Assembly (NCBI RefSeq): GCF_000219625.1
Contig: NC_018218.1
Coordinates: forward strand, 4,774,001-4,838,000
Length of the DNA stretch: 64,000 bases
From: Zymoseptoria tritici IPO323
Lineage: Eukaryota; Ascomycota; Dothideomycetes; Mycosphaerellales; Mycosphaerellaceae
Reading direction: 5' to 3'
Position numbers and translations under genes: made by a program. Numbering within the stretch: position 1 is the first letter of the stretch; every line of letters starts with the position of its first letter. This document shows, piece after piece, positions 21,889-54,080 of this stretch. The notes under the pieces are model-generated. The model was given only the letters and a program-made list of their open reading frames with translations. It was not told where the DNA came from and did not search any database.

Positions 21889-22092
21889 TAAGGACAATCT
21901 ACAGAGCTTTTCGACTGGACATGCAACTTCTCCCCTCCGTGCCCAACGTGATAGTGTTATGTACAGGCCGGCTCTGGGCGAGGTCCCGTCTTCCTCCCGC
22001 CTTAGGAATGGACCGCCGAGCAGGGTCTTCGCCGTTTGCGAAAACAACGGATATGTACGCTTTTGCCCGTTCTCCTCGATTAAACTGCTTAA

Positions 22093-22420
22093 GGGGAAGT
22101 AGCCTAATAGTAAGGCGCTGAGTCAAAATCCCTCTCAGGCTTGTCCTGAGTTTTCCATACAGTCTTGTACTGTACTTTGCTCACAGTCTTGTACTGTGTT
22201 ACTCCCTCAGGCTTGTCCTGAGTTTTCCGGAGATTGTGTCTCCTTTCAGGCTTGTCTTGAATTTCCCACAGGCTTGTCTTGTGTTACTTGTCAGGCTTGT
22301 CCTGCGTTTTCCACACAGTCTTGAATTGTGCTACCTGTCAGGCTTGTCCTGCGTTTTCCACACAGTCTTGAACTGTGATACTGTTGACTCAGAGATGCCG
22401 GTTCGAATCCGGCCTTCTCC
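22093..22420 (+). tRNA. tRNA-like Pol III gene 1 with an 11-hairpin insert in the anticodon loop
   Basis: Acceptor stem GGGGAAG (22093-22099) pairs with CTTCTCC (22414-22420) with one G-U. The A box TAGCCTAATAG fits TRGYNNARNNG exactly, with D stem GCC/GGC. T arm GCCGG-TTCGAAT-CCGGC contains the B box GGTTCGAATCC. Anticodon stem CTGAG (22118-22122) pairs with CTCAG (22388-22392). Between the two halves are 265 nt rather than 7. The bases inside the stem extend the pairing to nine pairs (CTGAGTCAA/TTGACTCAG). A T8 terminator follows at 22424. No 7-nt loop with U33 and a purine at 37 can be assembled by removing an intron at the usual position 37/38, so the isotype is not assigned. Ordinary fungal tRNA introns are far shorter. 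Confidence 0.8.
22134..22377 (+). repeat. array of 11 tandem hairpins inside tRNA-like gene 1
   Basis: Hairpins start at 22134, 22158, 22182, 22206, 22229, 22245, 22267, 22290, 22314, 22337 and 22361. Spacing is 23-24 nt except for 16 and 22 around the fifth and sixth. Typical units have a 6-bp stem and a 5-nt loop CTTGT (CTTGA in two). Stems differ but pair: CTCAGG/CCTGAG, TACAGT/ACTGTA, CACAGT/ACTGTG, GGAGA/TCTCC, TTCAGG/CTTGAA, CACAGG/CTTGTG. Units 8 and 10 (GTCAGG/CCTGCG) keep only four pairs. Spacers are pyrimidine-rich, TTTTCC or similar. Confidence 0.85.
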
Positions 22421-22423
22421 ATC

Positions 22424-22431
22424 TTTTTTTT
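22424..22431 (+). terminator. Pol III T-run terminator of tRNA-like gene 1
   Basis: Eight consecutive T residues begin 3 nt after the 3' base of the acceptor stem, the usual RNA polymerase III stop. Confidence 0.85.
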
Positions 22432-22701: not shown

Positions 22702-22707
22702 TATATA
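22702..22707 (+). promoter_or_regulatory. TATA-like element upstream of tRNA-like gene 2
   Basis: TATATA within CCGGTATATACCC, about 40 bp before the first base of the second tRNA-like body. Gene 1 has the related sequence CGGATATGTACGC at nearly the same distance, inside a flank of some 50 bp that resembles this one. TATA elements near -30 to -40 assist Pol III initiation in fungi. Confidence 0.5.
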
Positions 22708-22742: not shown

Positions 22743-22909
22743 GGGGAAGTGGTCTAATGGTAGAATACCGAGAGTGAACCCCCATGGCCTCTGTGCTGTG
22801 CTCTTAGCGGACTCTGCTCTGCTCTCCCTACGGACTCTGTTCTGTATTTCCCCATGGCCACTGTGCTGTGTTTTCACTCGGAGATGTCGGTTCGATTCCG
22901 ACCTTCCCC
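22743..22909 (+). tRNA. tRNA-like Pol III gene 2 with a 4-hairpin insert in the anticodon loop
   Basis: Acceptor stem GGGGAAG (22743-22749) pairs perfectly with CTTCCCC (22903-22909), followed by a discriminator A. A box TGGTCTAATGG fits the consensus. T arm GTCGG-TTCGATT-CCGAC contains B box GGTTCGATTCC. Anticodon stem CCGAG (22768-22772) pairs with CTCGG (22877-22881). The enclosed segment is 104 nt rather than 7. Inside it GTGAA and TTCAC can extend the stem with a small bulge. The D arm resembles fungal Gly or Gln tRNAs, but no anticodon with U33 and a purine 37 can be read, so the isotype is left open. It is a diverged paralogue of gene 1: same acceptor 5' strand, same AGAT variable loop, same architecture. 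Confidence 0.8.
22783..22870 (+). repeat. array of 4 tandem hairpins inside tRNA-like gene 2
   Basis: Hairpins start at 22783, 22806, 22829 and 22853, a 23-24-nt period as in gene 1. Each has a 6-bp stem and a 6-nt loop CTCTGT, CTCTGC or CACTGT. Stems are CATGGC/GCTGTG, AGCGGA/TCTGCT, TACGGA/TCTGTA and CATGGC/GCTGTG. Outer pairs change together (A-T, T-A, C-G), while G-U pairs are tolerated. The loop and stem sequences are unlike those of gene 1 although period and geometry agree. Confidence 0.82.
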
Positions 22910-22915
22910 AGTTCC

Positions 22916-22920
22916 TTTTT
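22916..22920 (+). terminator. Pol III T-run terminator of tRNA-like gene 2
   Basis: Five T residues 6 nt after the discriminator base, sufficient for Pol III termination in fungi. Confidence 0.65.
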
Positions 22921-23354: not shown

Positions 23355-23815
23355 GAACTGTTAAATAGCCGTACAGATAAGTTAGCCGGACAGTCAATTA
23401 GCTGCACCGGTATTATAGCAGGACAGGTAATTAAGCGTACAGATAAGTTAGCCGGACGGTCTATTAGCCGTGCCAGTATGATAGCAGGACAGGCAATTGA
23501 GCGTACAGATAAGTTACAGATAATTTAGCCGGACAGTCAATTAGCTGTGCCAGTATGATAGTAGGACAGGCAATTAAGCGTACAGATAAGTTAGCCGGTC
23601 AGTCTAATTGACCGTACAGGTACAATAGCCGGACAGGCAATTAAGAGTACAGATAAGTTAGCCGGACTGGCAATTAAGCGTACAGATAAGTTAGCCGGAC
23701 AGTCTAATTGAACGTACAGGTACGATAGCAGGCCCGTCGAAGTAATTGTACAGGTACGATAGCAGGACAGACTAATAGGCGTAACGGTAAACATATGCGG
23801 CAGCCTAATAACGGA
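23355..23815 (+). repeat. long degenerate minisatellite, ~33-bp unit
   Basis: Roughly 13 units around CGTACAGATAAGTTAGC followed by CGGACAGTCAATTA. Variants include CGTACAGGTACGATAGCAGG and TGCCAGTATGATAGCAGGAC. Many units differ by transitions, and unit length varies by a few bases. No frame is conserved through the array. It is the best-preserved copy of the repeat family also seen at 5.8, 12.7, 50.7 and 53.5 kb. It starts about 430 bp after tRNA-like gene 2. Confidence 0.88.
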
Positions 23816-50699: not shown

Positions 50700-50960
50700 G
50701 TTCTCAATGATCTTCCTCGCTAGCAGGCCTGCTGCCACTCTGCGCGTACAGACGAGCCAGGAGATATATCGACCTGTCCTGCTCGCGATACGACATGCCA
50801 ATGTACCTGGACGGTCATGCATATGATCAGGAAGATGTCCCGCTGAGTTACCTGCACGGCTAAGAGGGCATATTCGCAGCTTACCTGGACTGCTAAGAAG
50901 GCGTCCTGCTAACTTACATGCACAACTGTCAACATGTCCTGGTAATTCCAGTGCAGTAGA
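50700..50960. repeat. degenerate tandem-repeat tract, reverse orientation
   Basis: Contains GTCCTGCTAACTTACATGCA, AGCTTACCTGGACTGCTAAG and GAGTTACCTGCACGGCTAAG, spaced at roughly 30-35 bp. These are complements of the motif family at 23.4 kb. Strongly diverged. It starts about 30 bp after the Bdh1-like stop. Confidence 0.6.
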
Positions 50961-53474: not shown

Positions 53475-54080
53475 CAACTGATTGACCTGTCTCGCTAACT
53501 TGCTTGCACAACGATCTAGCATGTCTTAGTAACTTACATAGTGCACCGATTTCGCATGCTTATTACGGTACATGCACGACTATTCAGCACGTCTTGCTAA
53601 CTTAACTGTACGCTTATTTATGATTCCAACTACGGTACGTGTACGACTATTTAGCACGTCTTGGTAACGTACCTGTACGCCTATTTAGCATGCCTCATCG
53701 TACATGAACCCCTATTTTCCGAACCATTTACAGTACCTGTACGACTACCGAACATGCCTTCCTAACTTAAATGTACGCCTGTTTAGCATACCTGCTATGG
53801 TACGTGTACGACTATTTAGCATGTCTGGTAACTTAGATGTACGCCGGTCTAGCACGTCTAGCTAACTTATCGGAACGACTGTTTGGCATGTCGCATAAGT
53901 TAAATAAACAGCTATATAGCATGTCTTGCCAGCTCACTTTTACGACTATCGAGCAACTCTTGCTAGCTTAATTGTACGACGATTTAGCATGTCTCGATAA
54001 CTTAACTGTACGACTATGTAGCATGTCTGCAAACTTACCTTGGACGACTGTTTAGCATTGTCTGCTAGTCTATCTAGGAC
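53475..54080 (-). repeat. long degenerate minisatellite, ~34-bp unit, reverse orientation
   Basis: About 17 units read on the + strand as CTGTACGACTATTTAGCATG followed by TCTTGCTAACTTA, the complement of the 23.4-kb unit. Well-kept cores are TAGCATGTC, GCTAACTTA and TGTACG. Unit lengths range about 32-38 bp and substitutions are heavy. No open frame runs through. The block lies between the SUR7-like gene and an orphan gene. Confidence 0.88.

Follow-up and report, generated by a model that had tools for sequence, protein, structure and literature searches.

tRNA-like genes with hairpin arrays in the anticodon loop

The window analysed, a 64,000-nucleotide stretch of the Zymoseptoria tritici IPO323 genome, contains on its forward strand a tRNA-like gene with a 265-nt insert in the anticodon loop (gene 1, 22093-22421; chromosome 1, 4,796,093-4,796,421), which we studied by sequence anatomy, folding and a family model. 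The two strands of its acceptor stem, at 22093-22099 and, together with a discriminator A, at 22414-22421, pair as GGGGAAG/CTTCTCC over all 7 positions, one of them as G-U. Between them lie, on the same strand, a D arm of 4 bp (22102-22116), the 5' strand of the anticodon stem with a 4-nt extension (22118-22126), the 3' extension and 3' strand of that stem (22384-22392) and the T arm (22397-22413). The D (4/4), anticodon (5/5) and T (5/5) stems are fully paired, and the anticodon stem is lengthened by 4 further pairs (TCAA/TTGA) to a total of 9 bp; counted by eye, 21 of 21 body pairs are intact. Matching acceptor, D, T and anticodon stems and a 265-nt anticodon loop had been claimed in a preliminary description of the locus and are borne out here, the loop lying at 22123-22387. 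The same description called the A and B boxes perfect, which holds for the B box, GGTTCGAATCC at 22400-22410 within the T arm, and for the match of the A box to its consensus; but in the latter, which we recognized by eye as TAGCCTAATAG at 22100-22110, an A takes the place of G18, a near-invariant position of the tRNA D loop. Gene 1 was called neither by the Rfam tRNA search nor by ARAGORN run with the bacterial code.

Eleven hairpin units could be delineated within the insert. Eight of these have stems of 6 bp, namely units 1 to 4 (22134-22150, with the loop CTTGT, 22158-22174, 22182-22198 and 22206-22222), units 6, 7 and 9 with one G-U pair each (22245-22261, 22267-22283 and 22314-22330) and unit 11 (22361-22377), with the loop CTTGA in both units 9 and 11. 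Unit 5 (22229-22243) displays a 5-bp stem and a divergent loop, TTGTG, and the stems of units 8 and 10 are reduced to 4 bp (22292-22304 and 22339-22351, with unit starts at 22290 and 22337). The steps between successive units measure 22-24 nt with a single exception of 17 nt; the number of units given in the preliminary description stands. Most linkers, judged by eye, consist of pyrimidines followed by YAG. Across the array 61 of 66 stem cells are paired, a value that was never attained when the 3' arms were permuted 5000 times.

A second gene of this type (gene 2, 22743-22910, forward strand), overlooked in the earlier description, starts 321 nt downstream of gene 1 and is detected by the Rfam tRNA model at 43.2 bits. 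Its body matches that of gene 1, with 20 of 21 body pairs formed (by eye), and its 104-nt insert contains four hairpin units of 6 bp each (22783-22800, 22806-22823, 22829-22846 and 22853-22870) with the loops CTCTGT, CTCTGC, CTCTGT and CACTGT in that order, as against CTTGT in gene 1. The steps between these units are 23, 23 and 24 nt; period and geometry are those of gene 1 while the letters differ. All 24 stem cells of gene 2 are paired, six as G-U, a degree of pairing that is unexceptional by itself, being matched in 416 of 5000 arm permutations. Taking the units of both genes together (n=15), 85 of 90 stem cells are paired, and none of 5000 arm permutations comes as high. We further aligned the units of both genes in 14 rows, one duplicate among the 15 units being omitted and the row of unit 5 standing out of register. 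In this alignment 96.4% of 83 cells are paired against a shuffled mean of 76.0%, a level found in 0 of 500 shuffles; the covariation score reaches 0.705 as compared to at most 0.139 in slid registers. Two other measures are unexceptional, with 209 of 500 shuffles for pairs in which both sides changed and 63 of 500 for pair types. The evidential value of gene 2 is that it preserves the geometry of gene 1 in other letters.

Folding calculations revealed that the RNA of gene 1 (22093-22424) is more stable than its shuffled versions (z = -4.41, 0 of 100 shuffles equally stable), as is the insert taken separately (22127-22382; z = -3.36, 0 of 200), and that the whole-gene fold of gene 2 is weak (z = -1.05, with 32 of 200 shuffles equally stable). 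The local hairpins appear in the minimum-energy fold for 3 of 11 units in the whole of gene 1, for 5 of 11 in its insert alone and for 2 of 4 in gene 2. The remaining units of gene 1 pair elsewhere, mostly with other units, since they are alike in sequence; as a result, the minimum-energy folds of the gene and of its insert contain longer, interrupted helices between units, as against the 4-6 bp of the individual unit stems. With all eleven local hairpins formed the insert attains -55.3 kcal/mol, compared with -72.5 kcal/mol for its minimum-energy fold. Thus, it is the covariation within units, rather than the energies alone, that argues for the local hairpins.

A family with a shared body and divergent inserts

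We searched the genome, in all 21 contigs and 39,686,251 bases, with a 24-letter pattern taken from the start of the body, allowing up to 3 mismatches, and recovered 8 places as against 0 in the control. One of these is gene 2; the other seven fall into two chromosome 11 clusters, with two copies near 1.525 Mb and five near 1.549 Mb. The pattern missed gene 1, which has diverged further. Both halves of the body are present in six of the seven chromosome 11 copies, and the one lacking a clear 3' half is degenerate. From a loose pattern for the 3' half, which gave 27 matches against 59 in its control, the family matches alone were retained. The intact family accordingly has eight genes (genes 1 and 2 and six on chromosome 11), a count that is a lower bound on its size. 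Whole-gene DNA searches of the genome, a procedure that can miss copies, returned only the query itself for gene 1 and for gene 2. A family model was scored on 24 sequences: the eight members reach 90.6-113 bits, as expected by construction, the degenerate copy stands at 39.2 bits and other tRNA-like genes at 33.7 bits or less. Besides gene 2, the Rfam tRNA model detects two members on chromosome 11; the corresponding genome-wide search scored 63 of 1206 candidates and is hence not a census. Similarly, of the 184 B-box places in the genome, 79 sites were examined among the 100 matches listed, and ARAGORN with the bacterial code reported 1 tRNA among 60 B-box loci. The letter N occurs in 0 of the first 140 loci checked. 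Genome-wide, one A-box pattern for tRNAs, which fits few isoacceptors, had 0 matches and a second had 3, and a U6 core pattern had 0; such near or complete absence would mean either that these genes are interrupted or that letters are withheld from the sequence.

The inserts of the eight intact genes range from 36 to 265 nt, taken as gene length minus 64. By eye, two pairs of genes between both chromosome 11 clusters have insert letters in common, the other inserts seem unrelated, and none of the chromosome 11 inserts is a hairpin array like those of genes 1 and 2. In an alignment of the eight bodies, with the degenerate copy omitted, 86.9% of 168 stem cells are paired as against at most 58.3% in slid registers. 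Shuffling its columns gives an average of 85.1% and reaches 86.9% in 2 of 500 trials, and pairs changed on both sides (30 of 500) and pair types (463 of 500) are unexceptional; the family body is too uniform to yield a strong covariation signal. Pairs 1-3 of the anticodon stem are kept in all eight genes, with three compensatory cells. The six genes on chromosome 11, by contrast, are mismatched at two positions, acceptor pair 6 and the outermost pair of the T stem. The cloverleaf stems and A and B boxes of a decoding tRNA are present, apart from the missing G18 of gene 1 and these two broken pairs on chromosome 11. Dispersed retrocopies, as would mark a SINE, were not found by the body pattern or by the whole-gene DNA searches, which can miss copies; the places recovered lie in clusters on two chromosomes. 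We also considered a dispersed repeat and rejected it: the whole-gene searches returned the query alone, and the hairpin word with one mismatch has 259 matches in the genome against 203 for the reversed control, and among the matches listed (the first 100 of the 259) it stands in tandem in gene 1 only.

The flanks of these genes carry signals of the kind used by RNA polymerase III. A TATA-like element lies 41 nt upstream of gene 1 (TATGTA, a loose motif, at 22052-22057) and of gene 2 (TATAT at 22702-22706). Such words, in a loose form of the motif picked after inspection, occur at -34 to -43 in seven of the eight family genes, and the strict form TATAW is found upstream of five, gene 1 not being among them. 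At the other end, predicted Pol III terminators are formed by the T8 at 22424-22431 in gene 1, which had been pointed out before, and by a T5 at 22916-22920 in gene 2. In all eight genes a run of T5 or longer begins within 10 nt of the 3' end, against a background of 0.8-2.6% of 20-nt windows, and none of the eight intact genes contains an internal T5 run; every member hence has a T-run just 3' of the gene and none equally long inside. Shuffled inserts contain T5 in 3889 of 5000 cases for gene 1 and in 1275 of 5000 for gene 2. There are four internal T4 runs in gene 1 and one in gene 2, which might stop Pol III early. Taken together the promoter and terminator signals fit predicted transcription by Pol III. 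The original proposal of a Pol III-type, tRNA-like gene with a modular insert is thereby upheld as a prediction, and gains strength from the sister gene and the family.

A candidate tRNA scaffold and the competing explanations

Our best explanation, which we hold tentatively and a little short of even confidence, is that gene 1 is a tRNA-like, probably non-decoding gene with predicted Pol III transcription, in which the anticodon loop is replaced by an array of eleven units, each able to form a short hairpin with covarying stems, and that it belongs to a family with the same body and other inserts. Of the options raised in the preliminary description, namely an extreme tRNA intron, a new non-coding RNA built on a tRNA scaffold and a source of small hairpin RNAs, the second would fit best and the other two are disfavoured. 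The gene 1 sequence follows the design of such a scaffold, with a structured RNA set in the anticodon stem of a body that is otherwise intact.

The first of the disfavoured options treats the family as decoding tRNAs whose very long introns are cut out by the tRNA splicing endonuclease. It would agree with the location of the insert in the anticodon loop, with the short introns at the canonical site that are apparent by eye in other tRNA genes of this genome, and with the presence of U33 in two of the eight family genes. If an intron is assumed after position 37, though, the eight genes read AAA, TGA, GAG, GAA, CAA, CAA, AAA and CAG, that is, six different anticodons; U33 is missing from the other six, including both window genes, and a loop of the decoding kind, 7 nt in length with U33 and one fixed anticodon, was not found. 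A loose pattern for the 5' splice-site word and GT-branch-AG likewise has no match in any of the eight. These differing anticodons, the U33 in two of eight genes and the lack of GT-AG signals make an ordinary tRNA intron unlikely. In the predicted fold of gene 1, moreover, positions 32-35 lie inside a continuous 9-bp helix that carries the stem four pairs into the loop, with no bulge at the expected sites, although 179 of 1000 insert shuffles equal its total length. Over the eight genes the shuffles with an extension at least as long number from 10 to 985 of 1000, and the extension of the anticodon stem is not a rule of the family. The 265 nt of gene 1 also far exceed the 113-nt intron that is termed large in an excerpt of the tRNAscan-SE 2.0 paper (PMC8450103). 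Eukaryotic tRNA introns, as partly described in PMC4090602 and PMC8450103, resemble the family inserts in lying within the anticodon loop, and differ in that the inserts are much longer, modular and devoid of a canonical splice-site context or a conserved anticodon. On balance we regard the decoding alternative as improbable. Mimicry of splice acceptors by the array was rejected as well, as YAG follows the pyrimidine linkers in most units of gene 1 but in only one of the four units of gene 2 (by eye).

Still less probable, in our view, is that the transcript is a precursor from whose hairpins microRNA-like or other small RNAs are cut. Taken singly, the stems of the units, at 4-6 bp, fall short of what Dicer requires for a small-RNA duplex of about 20 nt, even though pairing between units could yield longer ones. 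A precedent is nonetheless available in Neurospora, where milR-4 is a tRNA-linked milRNA transcribed by Pol III (PMC3547838, in part); like the miRNAs of murine gammaherpesvirus 68 treated in the same excerpt, it shares with the predicted product of gene 1 a Pol III transcript that joins a tRNA moiety to hairpins. In both of those systems, as given there, RNase Z sets free a hairpin that sits outside the tRNA, whereas the units of gene 1 lie inside the anticodon loop. A more serious contender, albeit an unlikely one, is that a minisatellite has invaded decayed copies of a tRNA gene; the body would then be a relic, and the hairpins would stem from a palindromic repeat unit in the absence of selection. 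The paired changes across hairpin units, the geometry that genes 1 and 2 have in common despite different letters, their body pairs (21/21 and 20/21, by eye) and the retention of terminal T-runs in all eight genes with no internal T5 are at odds with such decay. In keeping with it are the arrays that Tandem Repeats Finder reports at the gene 1 insert, along with further minisatellites in the window, the loss of G18 in gene 1, the unpaired positions common to the chromosome 11 members, the degenerate copy on that chromosome and the failure of the minimum-energy folds to favour the local hairpins. Template switching in DNA could also create inverted repeats without selection, which counts against our best explanation. 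A viral origin was discarded, as the hairpin-pair pattern matched two IMG/VR records, both with one identical stretch, by chance; the first match falls in an open reading frame that we take to resemble a phage terminase.

Returning to the scaffold explanation, we consider it possible, with low confidence, that the genes form a natural tRNA scaffold system, that is, a predicted Pol III family in which one non-decoding, stabilising body carries hypervariable payloads in the anticodon arm, and that the arrays of the window pair sequester an RNA-binding protein. Under our best explanation the TATA element and the A and B boxes would start transcription and the T-run would end it. The tRNA cap could undergo the end trimming of a tRNA and shield the RNA from nucleases, and the extended anticodon stem would display the insert as an arm. 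The regularity of the array and the pyrimidine-rich linkers in the window pair suggest several copies of one protein side by side; the evenly spaced hairpins, each with a 6-bp stem, a UG-containing loop and a pyrimidine-rich linker, might bind these copies, and such binding would also shift the balance to local hairpins over inter-unit pairing. The RNA may then work as a scaffold or a sponge. The tRNA body would be retained for transcription and stability and the anticodon arm would serve as a payload bay, so that between members the body is kept and the payload changes. What the sequence itself shows is the tRNA body, the array of units, the sister gene, the relatives on chromosome 11 and the T-runs; the existence of the RNA, its stability and its binding of a protein are inferred.

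A comparable arrangement has been built by design. The engineered tRNA scaffold for recombinant RNA, as partly described in PMC3753655, likewise keeps the acceptor, D and T arms, accepts a structured RNA in the anticodon stem-loop and protects this unrelated insert; it is man-made and expressed in E. coli, whereas the gene 1 family is natural and fungal, shows predicted Pol III signals and carries inserts of several kinds. Our literature searches, which covered open-licence papers, listed no comparable family of tRNA-shaped payload RNAs. Parts of two Z. tritici small-RNA studies indicate that reads or loci annotated as tRNA were set aside (PMC6960233, PMC6620828), Zymoseptoria is not named in the main text of PMC9757828, and the word tRNA is absent from that of the IPO323 genome paper (PMC3111534). 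If expressed, the family would represent an independent, evolutionary tRNA scaffold in a major wheat pathogen, akin to those that biotechnologists built to protect RNA payloads. It would also constitute a class of Pol III RNAs that tRNA searches can miss, as Rfam and ARAGORN with the bacterial code did gene 1 (Rfam does pick up gene 2 and two of the members on chromosome 11), and provide a test system for the stabilisation of unrelated RNA by tRNA-end processing. A further likeness, in the form of a tRNA-derived internal promoter on a non-decoding RNA, is offered by SINEs of tRNA origin and by Pol III RNAs of the BC1 kind; in contrast to these, genes 1 and 2 hold their extra domain inside a closed cloverleaf and were not seen dispersed.

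Other tRNA-like genes and repeats

On chromosome 3, at about 2.41 Mb, three tRNA-like genes stand in tandem (locus L062, 51-189, 310-509 and 700-852). Their body is a different one, their anticodon loops likewise hold long inserts, and a T5 lies after the second gene and a T4 and then a T6 after the third. As their design is similar, we considered them as family members and rejected this, given that the family model finds only one of the three, at 24.7 bits; the trio was therefore not merged into the family. On the same chromosome, at about 350.5 kb, a gene that by eye is tRNA-Gly-like (L141, 290-432, reverse strand) carries an anticodon-loop insert of ~100 nt and is followed by a T5.

Six further tRNA genes contain inserts of the form GT...branch...AG outside the usual intron site. 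Labelled by eye from their loops, they are two tRNA-Ile genes (L056, 858-1041, and L094, 240-382, reverse strand), two tRNA-Thr genes (L138, reverse strand, and L140), a tRNA-Asp gene (L086, 240-386, reverse strand) and a tRNA-Arg gene (L054, 126-250). The inserts lie in the D arm of both tRNA-Ile genes and, in one of these, also in the 3' strand of the acceptor; in the anticodon stem of L140; at the junction of the D and anticodon arms and in the T stem of L138; in the anticodon stem of the tRNA-Asp gene; and inside the B box of the tRNA-Arg gene. Alignments of paralogues place the tRNA-Thr T-stem, tRNA-Ile acceptor and tRNA-Arg B-box inserts in one gene with the other lacking them. The loose GT-AG pattern applied above to the family matches all six of these genes, which had been flagged beforehand by eye, none of the three chromosome 3 genes and not L141. 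Introns of the spliceosomal type would be highly unusual in genes of the Pol III type, and this finding may matter more than the scaffold family.

Most of the loci L002-L031 represent a single tRNA-like sequence that recurs many times at dispersed sites and probably belongs to a transposon; its copies show C-to-T and G-to-A changes of the kind left by RIP. Within the window itself, minisatellites with units of 33-34 and 66-67 bp occupy 23370-23783, 50837-50923 and 53568-54067, and those near 23.5 kb and near 53.8 kb seem by eye to be inverted relatives of each other.
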